Below are positions 9,434 to 17,042 of a stretch of DNA of 45,838 bases, piece after piece (the first letter of the stretch is position 1; every line of letters starts with the position of its first letter). Both the position numbers and the translations under genes were made by a program. Location: positions 1-45,838 of the forward strand of contig PAVT01000041.1 in assembly GCA_002713165.1 (NCBI GenBank), written 5' to 3'. The DNA comes from Verrucomicrobiota bacterium (GTDB taxonomy: Bacteria > Bacteroidota > Bacteroidia > Flavobacteriales_E > Vicingaceae). The notes beneath the pieces were generated by a model. The model was not told the origin of the DNA. It saw only the letters and a list, made by a program, of their open reading frames with translations, and searched no databases.

Positions 9434-9455
9434 TAGTGGATAATTGTATCCACTA
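9434..9455. promoter_or_regulatory. inverted-repeat operator, probable Rrf2 site 1
   Basis: TAGTGGATA-ATTG-TATCCACTA, perfect 9-nt arms; upstream of a TACATTTG -7 element (9469-9476); 18/22 identical to the copy at 9944-9965. Confidence 0.7.
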
Positions 9456-9493
9456 TTATTTAATTTCCTACATTTGCGATGTAAAATCAGAGT

Positions 9494-9928
9494 ATGTTTT
9501 CAAAAGCCTGTGAATATGGAATAAAGTCAGCAATTTATGTTGCTGAGCAATCTATTGACGGCAGACGAGTAAGCATCAAAGATGTAACCAAAGCCATAAA
9601 CTCGCCTGAAGCTTATACTTCGAAAATATTACAACAGCTCAAAAACAATGGACTGATTAATTCGGATAGAGGACCCGGAGGAGGTTTTTCAATTGACCCT
9701 AAAACCATGGAGAAAATGACACTTAGTGATATAGTAACCGCTTTTGATGGTGACAGTATTTACAGAGGATGTGGCTTGGGATTTAAAAAATGTAATGCTG
9801 CCAAACCTTGTCCCGTTCATCATGAGTTTGCTAAAATTCGGGATCAACTAGCAAAAATGTTAAGTGAAACAACGATTAAATCTCTTGCATTGCAATTGCA
9901 GGATGGTTTATCCTTTTTAAAGACATAA
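9494..9928 (+). CDS. Rrf2 family transcriptional regulator (putative Fe-S or NO sensor)
   Basis: MFSKACEYGIKSAIYVAEQS...GGGFSI winged helix; Cys cluster CGLGFKKCNAAKPCPVHHEF (C-x6-C-x5-C). Confidence 0.93.
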   Translation: MFSKACEYGIKSAIYVAEQSIDGRRVSIKDVTKAINSPEAYTSKILQQLKNNGLINSDRGPGGGFSIDPKTMEKMTLSDIVTAFDGDSIYRGCGLGFKKCNAAKPCPVHHEFAKIRDQLAKMLSETTIKSLALQLQDGLSFLKT

Positions 9929-9943
9929 AAAAATTTGAAATAA

Positions 9944-9965
9944 TAATGGACAAGTTTATCCACTA
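9944..9965. promoter_or_regulatory. inverted-repeat operator, probable Rrf2 site 2 (upstream of the ccoN-like gene)
   Basis: TAATGGACAAGTTTATCCACTA, same 22-nt length and 18/22 identity to 9434-9455; lies 10 nt before the ccoN-like ATG. Confidence 0.65.
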
Positions 9966-9975
9966 ATAAAACATA

Positions 9976-11721
9976 ATGGTAGTAAACAGCATTTTTAATG
10001 AATCGGGAATCCTAATCACAATCGCCTTAATTATGGTTCCTGTCTTGGTTGGGGCATTGCTCGCCTATTCAAAAGCAATTCAGGTATTAAAAGAACTTAA
10101 CACCAAGCATAAAATCAAAGAGTTTCAAAAGAGAATTGAATCCCTGAGCGAAGAAGAAATAAATGAATTAAAACAGAGACAGGAAGAGTTGGAGTTTCGT
10201 TTGGCAGACAATGAATTGTCAGGCAAACACCTTCCAAAAGATAAGCGAGGTTTAATCAACAAAATAGAGCAGATAGAAGAATTAAGGTTTATTGATAGAA
10301 AAAAGAAAAGTATCCCTAGGCCTTCTGTAGATCCACGACTTGCTAAACTCATTTTATGGTTTTTGGGAACCGCTACTTTTTGGCTGTTATTTGGTACTAC
10401 AGTTGGCGAGTACTTAGGTATCAAATTCGTTGTGCCCGATGCAGATCATTATTCTTGGTTGAGTTTTGGTAGGCTTCGTCCTGTACATACCAACGCTGTA
10501 TTTTGGGGGTGGTCATCTTTAGCAATGCTTGGACTAGCATATTATGTAGTACCAAGAGTAAGCAATGTCCCAATTTTTAGTGTCAAACAGGGATATTGGA
10601 CATTATTTTTAGTCAATATTACTGTGATTACCGGAAGCTTGTTCCTGATGACAGGTATTAACAATGGCGGTGGAGAATACCGAGAATATATATGGCCGGT
10701 TATGTTGTTGTTTGGTATTGCCATTATCATTACCCTAAACAACTTTCTGAAAACTATTGCAAGAAGAAAAACCAAAGAAATCTACGTTTCCAATTGGTAC
10801 ATTGTGGCAGCTTTAATGTTTGTAGTCGTTATTGCCATTGTTGCCTATTGGCCTACATGGCAAATCGGCTTAGGAGAAACCATCGTACAGGGTTATTATA
10901 TGCATCAGGGCGTTGGTATGTGGTTCATGCTTTTCACCCTCGGATTAATGTATTACTACCTGCCTCAGCAACTGAATAAACCCATTTACTCTTATAGCTT
11001 AGGAATACTAGCATTTTGGGCACAGATTATTTTCTACACTTTAATCGGAACCCATCATTTTATATTTAGTGCCATCCCTTGGTGGTTGCAAACAGTTGCC
11101 ATTGTCGGGAGTGCAGGAATGGTCATTCCCGTTATTGCAGGAACAACCAACTTTCTGATGACCTTCAAAGGTTCATGGCATAAAGTGTCAAACAGTTACA
11201 CCCTCCCCTTCTATCTGATTGGAATCATTTTTTACTTTACAGGATCGTTGCAAGGAACGGCTGAAGCTTTCAGGTACACCAATCTATTATGGCATTTTAC
11301 TGACTTTACTGTTGCTCACTCTCACCTGACCATGTATGGCATAATTGCATTTATGTTGTGGGCATTTATTTATACCATTGTTCCGAGATTAACAGGGAAA
11401 GAACCTCCTCAAAGTACGGTGGGTGCTCATTTTTGGTTAGCTCTGATCGGTTTGATGTTTTATACCGTTCCCTTAATGATCGGAGCTTCAATAAGGGGCT
11501 TAATGTGGATGGATGCCAAACCTTTTATAGATAGTGTGAGTATGATGGCTCCTTATTGGCTTTGGAGAGCCATCGGCGGAAGCTTAATGTGGCTGTCTCA
11601 CATCCTATTTGCCTATAATTTTTACAAGATGGTTTTTCAAAAAGAAGAAATAAAGATTCCCGATTCTCCTCAAGAGATATTGAGACTAAGAGAGCAACTT
11701 GAGAAACAACAAACTACATAA
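9976..11721 (+). CDS. ccoN: C-family (cbb3-like) heme-copper oxidase catalytic subunit with an N-terminal TM/coiled-coil extension
   Basis: FGRLRPVHTNAVFWGW, MHQGVGMWF (CuB His), FYTLIGTHHFIF (CuB HisHis with Tyr at -6), HFTDFTVAHSHLTMYG (heme His). Confidence 0.88.
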   Translation: MVVNSIFNESGILITIALIMVPVLVGALLAYSKAIQVLKELNTKHKIKEFQKRIESLSEEEINELKQRQEELEFRLADNELSGKHLPKDKRGLINKIEQIEELRFIDRKKKSIPRPSVDPRLAKLILWFLGTATFWLLFGTTVGEYLGIKFVVPDADHYSWLSFGRLRPVHTNAVFWGWSSLAMLGLAYYVVPRVSNVPIFSVKQGYWTLFLVNITVITGSLFLMTGINNGGGEYREYIWPVMLLFGIAIIITLNNFLKTIARRKTKEIYVSNWYIVAALMFVVVIAIVAYWPTWQIGLGETIVQGYYMHQGVGMWFMLFTLGLMYYYLPQQLNKPIYSYSLGILAFWAQIIFYTLIGTHHFIFSAIPWWLQTVAIVGSAGMVIPVIAGTTNFLMTFKGSWHKVSNSYTLPFYLIGIIFYFTGSLQGTAEAFRYTNLLWHFTDFTVAHSHLTMYGIIAFMLWAFIYTIVPRLTGKEPPQSTVGAHFWLALIGLMFYTVPLMIGASIRGLMWMDAKPFIDSVSMMAPYWLWRAIGGSLMWLSHILFAYNFYKMVFQKEEIKIPDSPQEILRLREQLEKQQTT

Positions 11722-11732
11722 CAGACACAGCA

Positions 11733-12737
11733 ATGGAATTTTTTAACAATCATAGAAAGCTATTTACCACCGCATTGTTCATGTTTGTGGCATTGACCAT
11801 AATAGTAGCTCTGAAACCTGCTATTAACAATCAGGAGAACAATTCACCTTTGCCCAATGCAGAGCCACTTAACAAAGTGGAAATGGCCGGAAAGAAAGTA
11901 TATATCTCAGAAGGCTGTGTCGCTTGCCATACCCAACAAGTAAGAAATGTTGAAATGGATGAGGTTTGGGGTAAACGACCCGGTATTGCGGCAGATTACG
12001 CCAACATTAGGCGAACAGATTTTTGGCGAAATACAGCGACCCTCATGGGAACAGAAAGAACCGGCCCCGACCTAACCAATGTAGGAAATCGTCAGCCTAG
12101 TTTAGCATGGAATCTGCTGCATTTGTATCAGCCAAGGGCGGTAGTAAAGGAATCCATTATGCCTGCCTATCCGTGGTTATTCGAGATAAAGGATTCCGTG
12201 GGTGTAGAAGATGTAGAGGTGATTGTGCCGGAAGAATATCGAAAGACCGATAAAGGAAAAGTGGTGGCTACTCAAAAGGTACTTGATTTAGTGGCCTATT
12301 TACAAAGCCTAAAACAAACTCCACTTACCAACGAAAGTGACAATCCTGAATTTCTTTACAAGAAAAAGAAAGAGCCTGAATTTCTAAAAGAGAAAGTCGG
12401 CTCATTAGATGGCAAAGCACTATACGCAAGTAACTGTCAGAGTTGTCATCAGGCAAACGGAGAGGGTTTAAAAGGAGCTTTTCCACCCTTAAAAGGGAGT
12501 TCAATTGTACTCGGTGATGACTTAGAGTTATTAGTTTCTATAATTATGCTTGGTTATGATGCCCGACCTGAATACGCAGTTATGAATGCCGTAGGTAAAG
12601 ACAATGGGCTTACGCCTGAAGAAATCACAGCCATCATTAACCATGAAAAAACAAGTTGGGGCAATGATGCACAGACTGTAAGTACAGAAGAAGTAAAAAA
12701 AATAGTTGAATTCATTGAATTGACCTCCGGAAAATAG
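11733..12737 (+). CDS. CcoO-like cytochrome c subunit fused to a second cytochrome c domain
   Basis: CcoO motifs CVACHTQQVRN, RTGPDLTNVGNR, LHLYQPRAVVKESIMPAYPWL; second heme site CQSCHQANGEG. Confidence 0.88.
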   Translation: MEFFNNHRKLFTTALFMFVALTIIVALKPAINNQENNSPLPNAEPLNKVEMAGKKVYISEGCVACHTQQVRNVEMDEVWGKRPGIAADYANIRRTDFWRNTATLMGTERTGPDLTNVGNRQPSLAWNLLHLYQPRAVVKESIMPAYPWLFEIKDSVGVEDVEVIVPEEYRKTDKGKVVATQKVLDLVAYLQSLKQTPLTNESDNPEFLYKKKKEPEFLKEKVGSLDGKALYASNCQSCHQANGEGLKGAFPPLKGSSIVLGDDLELLVSIIMLGYDARPEYAVMNAVGKDNGLTPEEITAIINHEKTSWGNDAQTVSTEEVKKIVEFIELTSGK

Positions 12738-12741
12738 AAAC

Positions 12742-13026
12742 ATGAAGAAAAAATATTGGATTACCGCAGTTTTAATCACCATTTATCATCTCTCAATGGC
12801 GTGTGATGTATGTGACAAACAACAACCAAAAATTACTGCGGGTTTAACACATGGTGTTGGCCCCACAAGTAATTGGGATTGGGTAAATATATCCATTATC
12901 ACCGCCTTCACACTGCTTACCCTTTTTCTTTCAATTAAATACTTAGCAAAACCGGGAGAAAAAAATAAAAACCACATCAAAAGAAGCATTTTAACAAACT
13001 CAGAGCAATACGATGAAACAAGATAA
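12742..13026 (+). CDS. small membrane protein with CxxC after a signal-like segment
   Basis: 94 aa; N-terminal hydrophobic segment then CDVCDK, second TM NISIITAFTLLTLFLSIKYL. Confidence 0.6.
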   Translation: MKKKYWITAVLITIYHLSMACDVCDKQQPKITAGLTHGVGPTSNWDWVNISIITAFTLLTLFLSIKYLAKPGEKNKNHIKRSILTNSEQYDETR

Positions 13027-13417
13027 TAGCAAGGTAGTACTGTTCATAGATGAAGATGTTGAACCGATTGCTGAGCTATCAACGCCCATTCAGTTTGAAT
13101 TGGATACTACCAAACTCACCGATGGAGAGCATACATTGAGAATTGTAAGTAAATCTCCTCATGGAAAAGAAGGTTTAAGAAAGATAAAGTTTACCGTAAA
13201 AAACGGTCCTGACATAACCCTATCAGGGTTAAAAGACAATCAGGTAATAGATGGAATTCAACCCATTATGATTAATGCCTATGATAAGGGTAACCAAAAG
13301 GAATTCATCATAAAAGGGAGTGAAACTCCTGAAAGCATTCCCAATTGGCTTTGGATTATAATTATCCTCTTTGTTGGATGGATGATTTACTACTTAACCA
13401 CAAATTTTAATTTATAA
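13013..13417 (+). CDS. Ig-like/beta domain protein with a C-terminal TM anchor (HCO operon accessory)
   Basis: Overlaps the upstream stop; LTDGEHTLRIVSKSPHG...KIKFTVKNGPDITLSGL, C-terminal IPNWLWIIIILFVGWMIYYL. Confidence 0.6.
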   Translation: MKQDNSKVVLFIDEDVEPIAELSTPIQFELDTTKLTDGEHTLRIVSKSPHGKEGLRKIKFTVKNGPDITLSGLKDNQVIDGIQPIMINAYDKGNQKEFIIKGSETPESIPNWLWIIIILFVGWMIYYLTTNFNL

Positions 13418-13421
13418 AACT

Positions 13422-13757
13422 ATGGAAGCAATAATCTCAAAAACAGTACAAATGGAAACGACGTCAACGCAAGCTGCTCAGCTTAATTGGTTTAACAGAC
13501 AGGTAGCCAATTTTGAAGAATCAAGATTTGGTGTTATGGCAATGATGCTAGCGGTTCAAACCTGTTGGGGTTCCATAGCGGCAGGATTAAGTTATAGTAA
13601 CGAAACCATCTTGGGTCTAGCCCTTTGTGGGACTTTTACCATGCTCAATAACACCGTATTGATTGCACAAGGCCCTGCGAAATGGTGTGTAGGTATATTT
13701 TCGGCGGCTATAATTGTAAACACCATTATTATTCTAATAGAATTAATCGGAGGATAA
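13422..13757 (+). CDS. small multi-TM membrane protein
   Basis: 111 aa with about three hydrophobic segments; stop overlaps the next ATG. Confidence 0.6.
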   Translation: MEAIISKTVQMETTSTQAAQLNWFNRQVANFEESRFGVMAMMLAVQTCWGSIAAGLSYSNETILGLALCGTFTMLNNTVLIAQGPAKWCVGIFSAAIIVNTIIILIELIGG

Positions 13758-14149
13758 TGAAAAGAAAGGAAATCATCAGTTTGGAGGAAGTAAAAACATT
13801 GGTAGATGAATTTTACACCAAAGTGAGAAGTGATGAATTGCTAAAAAATATTTTCAATGAGCGAATTCAGAGTCGATGGTCGGAGCATTTGGAAAATATG
13901 TACCGCTTTTGGCAAACTGTTTTATTAGATGAGCACACATATAGCGGAAGTCCATTTCTGCCACATGCCAATATGCCTGTGAAGCTTATTCATTTTGAAC
14001 GTTGGCAAGAGCTATTCAATAAAACTGTGGACGAGAACTTTATTGGAGATAAAGCCATGGAAGCAAAAAGACGTGCTAAAATGATGGCTACCATGTTTCA
14101 TCATAAAATTGAATATTATAAAAACAATACAGCAACACCACTTAAATGA
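13757..14149 (+). CDS. group III truncated haemoglobin
   Basis: ATG at 13757 (TAATG overlap); FYTKVRSDELLKNIFNERI, HLENMYRFWQTVLL, PHANMPVKLIHFERWQELF typical of group III trHb. Confidence 0.88.
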   Translation: MKRKEIISLEEVKTLVDEFYTKVRSDELLKNIFNERIQSRWSEHLENMYRFWQTVLLDEHTYSGSPFLPHANMPVKLIHFERWQELFNKTVDENFIGDKAMEAKRRAKMMATMFHHKIEYYKNNTATPLK

Positions 14150-14598
14150 GCATTGTTAAATATCCTATTAGTGTAATTGCCACTTTTTTGTGGGTTGGTT
14201 TTATATGTGCCATTAGTTTTATGGAGGCTTGGCTAAAATTCAGAGCCGATGGCATTACCTTGTCTTTAGGTTTAGGAATTGGTCGATTGGTATTTAGTGC
14301 TTTAAACAAGGTTGAATGGGTATTAGCCATAGCAATTCTGCTTAATCAGTTTTTTGACCTAAAATCAATCTCTGTAAAGAAGTTAATCCCCTTTTTTATA
14401 CCATTTGTGCTTTTAATAACTCAAACTTTTTGGCTTTTACCTGCTTTAGATTATAGGGCAGAATTAATCATTCAAGGGCAGATCTTACCTCCTTCAAATC
14501 TACATTTCTATTATGTAGGTATGGAAGTAGTTAAAGTGATTAGCCTATTCCTGTTCGGAATATCATTATTTACCTTAAAAACGAAAAATGAAGGATAA
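14146..14598 (+). CDS. 4-TM membrane protein of unknown function
   Basis: 150 aa, four hydrophobic segments; overlaps both neighbouring genes. Confidence 0.65.
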   Translation: MSIVKYPISVIATFLWVGFICAISFMEAWLKFRADGITLSLGLGIGRLVFSALNKVEWVLAIAILLNQFFDLKSISVKKLIPFFIPFVLLITQTFWLLPALDYRAELIIQGQILPPSNLHFYYVGMEVVKVISLFLFGISLFTLKTKNEG

Positions 14599-15499
14599 AC
14601 TTTTGCAAGAAATTAAGAATAAGTACAGGGATTTGGGAGAAAACTCCGAAACCTATTTGAAAGGATTATTACACGCTAAACCCATCAATTATTGGGATTA
14701 TGTAGAAGTTGAAACCTTGCTTTCGCTTCAAAAACCAAGAACCAATTTTAAGGATGAAGAAATCTTCATCATGTATCATCAGGTAACTGAATTGGTTTTA
14801 AAGATGATCGTACACGAATTGAAACAACTTGTTTTTGAACAATTTAATGAACAGATATGGCTCGATAAACTCAATCGAATTATTCGTTATACTGATATGC
14901 TGATTACTTCTTTTGATGTAATGAAATCGGGAATGAGTTATGATGACTACAATACCTTTAGAAGTACGCTGACACCTGCAAGTGGATTCCAAAGTGCTCA
15001 ATTCCGACAAATTGAATTGTACTGTACTCGTGTAGAAAATTTATTAAATGAGGAAGGAAGAAAAAGAATCGGAGAGAATCCTTCAGTTCAGGATTACTTT
15101 GAACACATTTATTGGAAAGATGCAGGCTTAAACAGAAAGACAGGAAAGAAGTCTTTGACCTTAAGCCAATTTGAGGAGAAGTATTTGAATCAGTTTATTG
15201 CTTTGGCAGAGCAAGTGAAAGGAGAAACCTTAGAAGAAAAGGTTCTAAAAGCGAACTGCTCTAATGAATTGAAAGAGAAATTGAGAGCCTTCGATGACTT
15301 CTACAATGTAAAATGGCCAATGGTTCATTTAGAAACAGCCCAACATTACTTAGATAAGAAAGGAGAAAATAAAGCAGCTACGGGAGGCAGTGAATGGAAG
15401 AAATATCTACATCCGAAATTTCAACAGCGTAAATTCTTCCCAACCTTATGGGATAAAGAAGAGTTGGAAATTTGGGGTGAAAAATCAAACGAAAAATAA
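14588..15499 (+). CDS. tryptophan 2,3-dioxygenase family heme protein
   Basis: FIMYHQVTELVLKMIVHEL, FRSTLTPASGFQSAQFRQIE, HLETAQHYL...ATGGSEWKKYL correspond to TDO motifs. Confidence 0.88.
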   Translation: MKDKLLQEIKNKYRDLGENSETYLKGLLHAKPINYWDYVEVETLLSLQKPRTNFKDEEIFIMYHQVTELVLKMIVHELKQLVFEQFNEQIWLDKLNRIIRYTDMLITSFDVMKSGMSYDDYNTFRSTLTPASGFQSAQFRQIELYCTRVENLLNEEGRKRIGENPSVQDYFEHIYWKDAGLNRKTGKKSLTLSQFEEKYLNQFIALAEQVKGETLEEKVLKANCSNELKEKLRAFDDFYNVKWPMVHLETAQHYLDKKGENKAATGGSEWKKYLHPKFQQRKFFPTLWDKEELEIWGEKSNEK

Positions 15500-15515
15500 A
15501 TTAAAAACATAAGAA

Positions 15516-16244
15516 ATGAATATTACAGAAAATGACATTGTAGGAGAATTGGTGGCGAAAGATTATAGAACAGCATCTGTTTTTAAGTCAGAAGGCATTG
15601 ACTTTTGTTGTCGAGGGAATCGTAGCATTCAGGAGGTTTCTAAACACAACAACATTGAAACGGAAACCCTGATTGAAAAATTAAATGCAGCTATAACCGG
15701 AACAAGTGGAACTACGGATTATGATTCATGGCCAATTGATCTTTTAGCGGACTATATTGAAAAAAAACACCACCGCTATGTAGAAGAAAAAATTGCTGAA
15801 ATAAAACCTTATCTGAGTAAGGTAGTGAGTGTGCATGGAAAGCAGCATCCGGAATTAGAAGAAATACAAGTGCTATTCAATGGAGCGGCAGGCGAATTGG
15901 CGATGCACATGAAAAAGGAAGAATTGGTATTGTTTCCATTCATCCGTAAAATGGTAAAATCAAAACAAAGCAATGAGTCGATAGAGGTACCTCATTTTGG
16001 AACAGTTGACAATCCTATAGCCATGATGAAAGAAGAGCATGACAAGGAAGGCATTCGATTCAGGAAGATTGCCGAATTAAGTTCCAATTATACGACACCT
16101 ACTGATGCTTGCAATACTTACAAAGTAACTTATGCACTGCTAAAGGAGTTTGAAGCAGACTTACATTTGCACATTCACTTAGAAAATAACATCTTGTTTC
16201 CAAAAGCTTTAAAAATGGAACAGGATTTACTTCATACAACGTAG
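15516..16244 (+). CDS. ric: iron-sulfur cluster repair di-iron protein (RIC/ScdA/YtfE)
   Basis: N-terminal DUF542 FKSEGIDFCCRGNRSIQEV; hemerythrin-like H/E motifs (HHRYVEEK, MKKEELVLFPFI, EEHDKEG, HIHLENNILFPKA). Confidence 0.93.
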   Translation: MNITENDIVGELVAKDYRTASVFKSEGIDFCCRGNRSIQEVSKHNNIETETLIEKLNAAITGTSGTTDYDSWPIDLLADYIEKKHHRYVEEKIAEIKPYLSKVVSVHGKQHPELEEIQVLFNGAAGELAMHMKKEELVLFPFIRKMVKSKQSNESIEVPHFGTVDNPIAMMKEEHDKEGIRFRKIAELSSNYTTPTDACNTYKVTYALLKEFEADLHLHIHLENNILFPKALKMEQDLLHTT

Positions 16245-16588
16245 TGATTGAAGAAAATAGATTGAGAGAAACATACAAAGTGCAGGTGATTGATTTTTTA
16301 GGTGAATCAAACACATTAACATTTCGAAGCCATCAATACCGAAACCTTATGGAAATGATTGTAGATCAGTTAAGCGAAGATATTGGCGACTGTATGGGCA
16401 GGGCTTGGTGTGGCACATGCCACGTTGAATTGGTGCAAGGAAACTTAGTAGATGATAAGGATAGCAAAGAAGATCATAAACTAAAAGAGTTATACAATCA
16501 TAGCCAAGCTAGCAGGCTTTCCTGTCAAATTATGGTGAACAAAGAATTAGATGGCTTAACCTTCAAACTATTGTCAGAATATGTCTAA
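16244..16588 (+). CDS. [2Fe-2S] ferredoxin-like protein
   Basis: GTG start overlapping the RIC stop; CMGRAWCGTC (C-x5-C-x2-C) plus RLSCQIMV gives the ISC-ferredoxin Cys pattern. Confidence 0.75.
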   Translation: MIEENRLRETYKVQVIDFLGESNTLTFRSHQYRNLMEMIVDQLSEDIGDCMGRAWCGTCHVELVQGNLVDDKDSKEDHKLKELYNHSQASRLSCQIMVNKELDGLTFKLLSEYV

Positions 16589-17042
16589 GCCCTTAAAAAG
16601 ACATCTGTTATTACAGGATTTAAGCCGGGATCATCATCATGGTTTATTGCTATGTTGGAAAATCAGAACAGGCTTCAAAAAAGAAATTGCTCCAAAACGC
16701 ATGATGAAGTATGCTCAATGGTTTTGGAAGAATCATTTAAAAGTCCACTTTAAAATTGAAGAGGAAACTGTTTTCCCTATTCTTGGAAAAGAGCACGATT
16801 TGATTAAAAAAGCATTGAGTGAACACCGGAAAATTAAACGCTTAATGGAAGGAACTGATAACATAGAAGTCCGATTAAATAGCATTGAAGAGCAATTAGA
16901 GCAGCACATTCGTTTTGAAGAAAGAATATTGTTTCAGGAAGTTCAGTCTATAGCAACAGAAACTGAGCTAAAGCACGTAAAAGAAGCTCATTCTGAAGAA
17001 AACTTTGTTGATAACCTAAATGATCCCTTTTGGGAAAAATAA
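16581..17042 (+). CDS. hemerythrin domain protein
   Basis: LSRDHHHGLLLCWKIR, HFKIEEETVFPIL, EHRKIKRLM, HIRFEERILF. Confidence 0.88.
   Translation: MSKPLKRHLLLQDLSRDHHHGLLLCWKIRTGFKKEIAPKRMMKYAQWFWKNHLKVHFKIEEETVFPILGKEHDLIKKALSEHRKIKRLMEGTDNIEVRLNSIEEQLEQHIRFEERILFQEVQSIATETELKHVKEAHSEENFVDNLNDPFWEK

Follow-up and report, generated by a model that had tools for sequence, protein, structure and literature searches.

Relation to Described Systems

Several described systems resemble parts of an oxidase operon found in a 45,838-nucleotide stretch of DNA (positions 1 to 45,838 of contig PAVT01000041.1, assembly GCA_002713165.1, placed by GTDB in the Vicingaceae, Bacteroidota), the whole of which is called the window here. 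The closest is the canonical cbb3 oxidase CcoNOP (PDB 3mk7 and 9g6b), which has the same CcoN fold, heme and CuB ligands, cross-linking Tyr and CcoO domain. In contrast, the CcoN-like subunit of the window is about 30% identical to canonical CcoN, ccoP is missing, CcoO carries a second cytochrome c, and the operon adds an immunoglobulin (Ig)-like protein with a transmembrane (TM) helix, here Ig-TM, a CxxC protein, and a palindrome and neighbors of the nitric oxide (NO) type. The NO reductases cNOR and qNOR show a distant likeness in fold, and the cNOR genes of Flavobacterium antarcticum have the same palindrome, but the CcoN-like protein is without their helix-VI Glu, keeps the Tyr and falls in a separate clade. 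With respect to regulation, the nearest system is the NsrR regulon (PMC1274295), whose regulator belongs to the same Rrf2 family as the one encoded ahead of the oxidase and whose targets are hmp, nor, and RIC-type genes; however, the palindrome described here, TAAagGAcAaattTgTCctTTA, is unlike gATGyAT-N5-ATrCATc, and the score of the window's regulator against the NsrR model is far below cut-off. Another example is CcoN4 of Pseudomonas aeruginosa, likewise an additional cbb3 catalytic subunit linked to a respiratory poison (PMC10790758), although CcoN4 is an orphan subunit induced through cyanide and MpaR, whereas an operon, NO and an Rrf2 regulator would be involved here. No account of this operon was found in the literature searched, the coverage of which was partial.

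The Catalytic Subunit and Its Neighborhood

That the locus represents a real and conserved cbb3 variant under NO-linked regulation is well supported by sequence comparison, and we hold it with high confidence. With a slighter leaning, we favor the view that it encodes an NO-induced, remodeled Bacteroidota cbb3 oxidase that would keep O2 respiration going under NO. The catalytic subunit (9976–11721, + strand, as for all genes below; COX1/CcoN-like, with an N-terminal TM/coiled extension) is phylogenetically a member of a distinct C-family clade: in a tree that also included canonical CcoN, cNOR, and further heme-copper enzymes, 22 of 22 sampled members grouped together (SH-aLRT 100) on the cbb3 side, in a topology obtained by a quick method without bootstrap and with some long branches flagged. 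H171, H310, Y354, H360, H361, N392, H448, and H450 are invariant in an alignment of 88 sequences, and the heme and CuB His ligands of O2-reducing cbb3 enzymes are all kept, together with the helix-VII cross-linking Tyr (Y354). The helix-VI Glu that NO reductases have near FeB is absent, the segment reading YMHQGVGMW here vs. VVHLWVEGVWE in cNOR. To our knowledge, dedicated NO reductases have lost the cross-linking Tyr. Because this Tyr and the CuB ligands are fully conserved, O2 is favored as the main substrate. The AlphaFold model, of moderate confidence (mean pLDDT 65) and read for overall fold only, has cbb3 CcoN chains as its nearest structures (TM-score 0.82 by target length), and NorB matches it too at weaker E-values. 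The next gene (11733–12737, 80/80 loci of the survey described below) encodes the mono-heme CcoO subunit expected of a cbb3 enzyme, as indicated by its FixO domain and by PDB matches to CcoO chains, fused to a second cytochrome c; the separate diheme CcoP subunit also expected of cbb3 is not encoded in the operon.

The two genes that follow complete a conserved core. They code for a secreted/TM protein with CxxC and THG motifs (12742–13026, 77/80 loci) and for Ig-TM, an Ig-like domain with a C-terminal TM helix (13013–13417, 76/80 loci). GTDB species genomes were scanned for the query, 407 relatives were recovered, and the best 80 were kept for locus counts, which are lower bounds in that some contigs are short. 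Conservation of the neighborhood across Bacteroidota, proposed as a check in the preliminary description, was borne out: the four-gene synteny is present in 76–80 of the 80 loci, 78 of these relatives are recorded as Bacteroidota and are spread over several orders, and the gene for the Rrf2 regulator adjoins the oxidase in 69. Flanking genes beyond the named members are seldom common to the loci and, when common, often come from one genus, so the grouping of the core exceeds chance. Among 197 Bacteroidia genomes, the CcoN-like clade was found in eight (nine loci, 56–75% identity), the next sequences below it being ordinary CcoN at 34% identity.

The same earlier reading had described 11 tightly packed + strand genes at 9976–17042, and these are indeed there, at about those positions and with identities that agree with domain searches, the spacing between neighbors ranging from -14 to +16 bp; the genes are presumably co-transcribed. 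The unit begins one gene earlier than thought, since its true 5' end is the Rrf2 regulator gene (9494–9928), 47 bp ahead of the CcoN-like gene and accompanied by palindromes, which brings it to 12 genes. As for the proposal that the 11 genes form one system, it holds for a conserved core of four to five genes, the remaining members being optional (e.g., 10/80 loci for a tryptophan 2,3-dioxygenase (TDO) family gene and 1/80 for a 111-aa membrane protein). The reported lack of canonical ccoP and ccoGHIS was confirmed at the locus by gene calls and domain searches of the window; the only other COX1 locus in this assembly, which is 66.7% complete, is on a different contig and consists of a fused CcoNO gene and, downstream of it, a CcoP gene. 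A nos cluster including nosZ lies on another contig as well.

Possible CcoP-Derived Parts

Comparison of the small subunits with CcoP suggests that parts of the usual cbb3 subunits may have been shared out differently in this enzyme. The second cytochrome c, at the C-terminus of the CcoO fusion, can be aligned with that of CcoP (hhalign P 2e-11), in a class of proteins that are generally alike. Of 44 Ig-TM members, 27 match FixP_N weakly (best E 0.012), and the profile alignment of Ig-TM with the CcoP helix (P 0.004) places the invariant E104 over the Glu of ELDNxLPPWW. This Glu is by position E49 of Pseudomonas stutzeri CcoP, which we take to have a role in proton entry. When a CcoP-helix model was run against 9492 open reading frames, Ig-TM accounted for 21 of the top 50 matches, each with an E-value of about 1 or above, the matches being interdependent; Ig-TM had no PDB match at E <= 0.001. 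Homology between the Ig-TM helix and the CcoP helix is thus suggestive. In the CxxC protein, C21, C24, and H37 are invariant, and family searches gave no convincing known family. A CcoP origin for the N-terminal CcoN extension was considered and rejected, because the alignment (hhalign P 2.6e-7) is a gappy one of hydrophobic segments with 9% identity.

The Rrf2 Regulator and a Candidate Operator Palindrome

The regulator (Pfam Rrf2 E 1.6e-24) has an Rrf2 fold and a CX6CX5C motif, the three Cys being conserved among relatives, and its NsrR equivalog score is 37.8 bits vs. a cut-off of 182. A 22-bp palindrome ahead of its gene is a new element in this analysis. In the window it occurs as TAGTGGATAATTGTATCCACTA (9434–9455, no strand assigned), a candidate operator, followed by TACATTTG (9469–9476, + strand), a candidate for the TAnnTTTG element that we take to be the Bacteroidota -7 box and that in most loci follows the palindrome at a distance of 12–16 bp. 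A second copy, TAATGGACAAGTTTATCCACTA (9944–9965, no strand assigned, 21.5 bits), is located between the regulator and the CcoN-like gene, as in 28 of 72 loci. The symmetric motif search ahead of the regulator returned TAAagGAcAaattTgTCctTTA with a log-likelihood of 603 vs. about 50 for shuffles, width 22 having been chosen as the best among four and shuffles made at width 21 only. In 65 of 73 loci the palindrome scores above the 99th percentile obtained with shuffled sequences, an optimistic figure in that the matrix was built and scored on the same sequences; its fixed position, in most cases some 40 bp ahead of the start codon, supports it independently.

Apart from the two palindromes of the window, its incomplete genome has no exact match to the pattern. 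Over 24 genomes the pattern has 46 matches, of which about 24, assigned by hand, are at CcoN-like loci. About 10 of the 22 others immediately precede norCBQ, an NOR-like cluster, flavohemoglobin, RIC, truncated hemoglobin/ferredoxin, or related genes, in a sorting done after the genes had been seen and with no formal null. In F. antarcticum the palindrome is 23 bp before norC of norCBQ, and in Niastella it is upstream of the flavohemoglobin gene. A candidate operator common to NO-detoxification genes, as in NsrR-type regulation, is present, and these positions before norCBQ, flavohemoglobin, RIC, and truncated hemoglobin genes make an NO-responsive regulon likely. This, and the recurrence of RIC, truncated hemoglobin and hemerythrin genes beside the oxidase, strengthens the link to NO drawn in the preliminary description; the Rrf2 protein itself would bind the palindrome and sense NO. 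These results define an NO-type Rrf2 regulon of Bacteroidota that is open to testing and has a candidate operator of its own.

Other genes have been noted at palindromes or CcoN-like loci. A U32 peptidase and ferredoxin pair has the palindrome ahead in one locus (L192:4029-5517) and directly precedes the CcoN-like gene in another (L038:7063-8530). Membrane proteins of about 400 aa with an HxHSH motif are found beside nos genes (L164:1864-3075 and L037:4927-6165) and after a palindrome (L190:3224-4438, no Pfam match).

Proposed Function and Alternatives

According to the favored reading, in the absence of NO the Rrf2 regulator, in its iron-sulfur (Fe-S) form, would sit on one or both promoter palindromes and keep the operon repressed; damage to its cluster by NO would clear the promoter. 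The complex would then be made from the CcoN-like protein, CcoO with its second cytochrome c, the CxxC protein and an Ig-TM helix replacing that of CcoP, alongside NO-binding and Fe-S repair proteins; it would most likely reduce O2 and continue to work where the ordinary cbb3 enzyme is blocked by NO. The canonical oxidase also encoded in the window's genome speaks for this scheme. Subunit assembly and NO tolerance are predicted features of the complex, and it may also reduce some NO. Three observations weigh against the scheme. The invariant Glu of canonical CcoN is Gln426 in the CcoN-like protein; a reversed control pattern gave 25 matches in the same 24 genomes, and some palindrome matches must therefore be due to chance (probably several of the remaining ones, within genes or before unrelated ones); and several carriers have no other detected NO reductase, so that NO could be their main substrate.

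The last point leads to a possible, less probable explanation, namely, that the enzyme is a dedicated C-family respiratory NO reductase that forms N2O and fills the step missing in Bacteroidota with nirK and nosZ and without norB. One third of the Bacteroidetes with nirK and nosZ have been reported to be without norB (PMC4250227), and the cbb3 oxidase of P. stutzeri is capable of NO reduction (PMC8780969). Four species of Kaistella, one genus and hence close to a single observation, have nirK and nosZ, and the only heme-copper enzymes detected in them are canonical CcoNO and the CcoN-like one; Brumimicrobium salinarum, a second lineage, is similar and has an A-type enzyme in addition. No other NO reductase was detected in these five with a COX1 model, which would miss reductases of other families or very divergent ones. 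A nos cluster adjoins three CcoN-like loci, and the palindrome also stands before norCBQ. On the other hand, the cross-linking Tyr and CuB ligands are invariant and the FeB Glu is absent, qNOR is also present in 17 of 50 carriers and cNOR-like enzymes in some others, and two nirK-positive genomes (G125 and G130) have neither a detected NO reductase nor the CcoN-like enzyme. It is possible, but less probable, that such denitrifiers rely mainly on a C-family enzyme with an intact His-Tyr site for respiratory NO reduction. Of the earlier proposal of a complex for growth under NO or one using NO, the link to NO stands, and the use of NO is weakened by an active site of the O2-reducing cbb3 type. 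The operon is a concrete candidate for the way in which NO is dealt with by denitrifying Bacteroidota that lack norB, a gap noted previously (PMC4250227), with a bearing on N2O formation and consumption.

Genome comparisons have been considered in the same context. The genes nosZ, nirK, and qNOR are commoner in carriers than in 189 genomes without the enzyme, in a comparison with relatedness uncontrolled and sets drawn differently: nosZ is present in 43/56 carriers vs. 68/189 non-carriers (Fisher P 9e-8) and qNOR in 17/50 vs. 10/189. A specific association with nosZ was rejected, since non-carriers of the same families are mostly nosZ-positive too and lineage confounds the count. Mutual exclusion with known NO reductases was rejected as well, on account of the enrichment of qNOR in carriers and of the two nirK-positive genomes with neither enzyme.

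Much less probable is that the Rrf2 protein senses Fe-S or iron status instead of NO, the operon being a general Fe-S stress response. IscR-like models are the nearest of the NCBIfam Rrf2 subfamilies (all scores below cut-off) and the operon contains a ferredoxin and RIC, but the palindrome precedes flavohemoglobin and norCBQ genes, classic NO targets, and no isc or suf genes were seen at the palindrome sites examined. Least probable of all is an ordinary low-O2 cbb3 paralogue, with NO genes adjacent merely because both serve microaerobic life, since the typically microaerobic role of cbb3 enzymes and the canonical active site are set against the adjacent Rrf2 gene, a palindrome common to NO-detoxification genes and the recurrent linkage to RIC, truncated hemoglobin and HHE genes.

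Accessory Genes and Other Observations

Downstream of the core, the operon of the window encodes a rarely kept small membrane protein of 111 aa (13422–13757), a group III truncated hemoglobin (13757–14149, 48/80 loci), whose sole PDB match is 2ig3 (E 1.1e-13), a 4-TM membrane protein without Pfam match (14146–14598, 17/80 loci), and a divergent heme protein of the TDO family (14588–15499). These are followed by the di-iron Fe-S repair protein RIC (ScdA/YtfE; 15516–16244; TIGR03652 232 bits, cut-off 205; 33/80 loci), a [2Fe-2S] ferredoxin (16244–16588, Fer2 E 5.7e-7, 23/80 loci) and a hemerythrin HHE protein (16581–17042, E 9.7e-10, 30/80 loci). The TDO-family protein is under the NCBIfam equivalog cut-off (106 vs. 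390.7 bits); F51, H55, Y113, R117, H240, and T254 (Xanthomonas campestris numbering), to which we ascribe the roles presumed for them in TDO, are present in an alignment to 2nw7 whose C-terminal part is weakly aligned. Tryptophanase-like candidates, read from their N-termini, adjoin two CcoN-like loci (L038:4029-6912 and L041:12387-13814), and together with the TDO gene in other loci they may hint at a link to tryptophan.

Genome G134 has two divergent copies of the CcoN-like operon (L033 and L036), and in carrier G235 (L105) no canonical CcoNO was found, which assembly incompleteness may explain. A small protein family, which by its appearance we take to resemble DUF488, occurs around the enzyme in 12 of 85 loci (L121:13829-14191 and 11 others). 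Finally, an NOR-like heme-copper clade (L141, L142, L144-L148, L150, and L151) has a helix-VI segment without His, e.g., QWKSYGSMVGSWNM, and several of its members are located beside a NorC-like gene, near nirK or nosZ.

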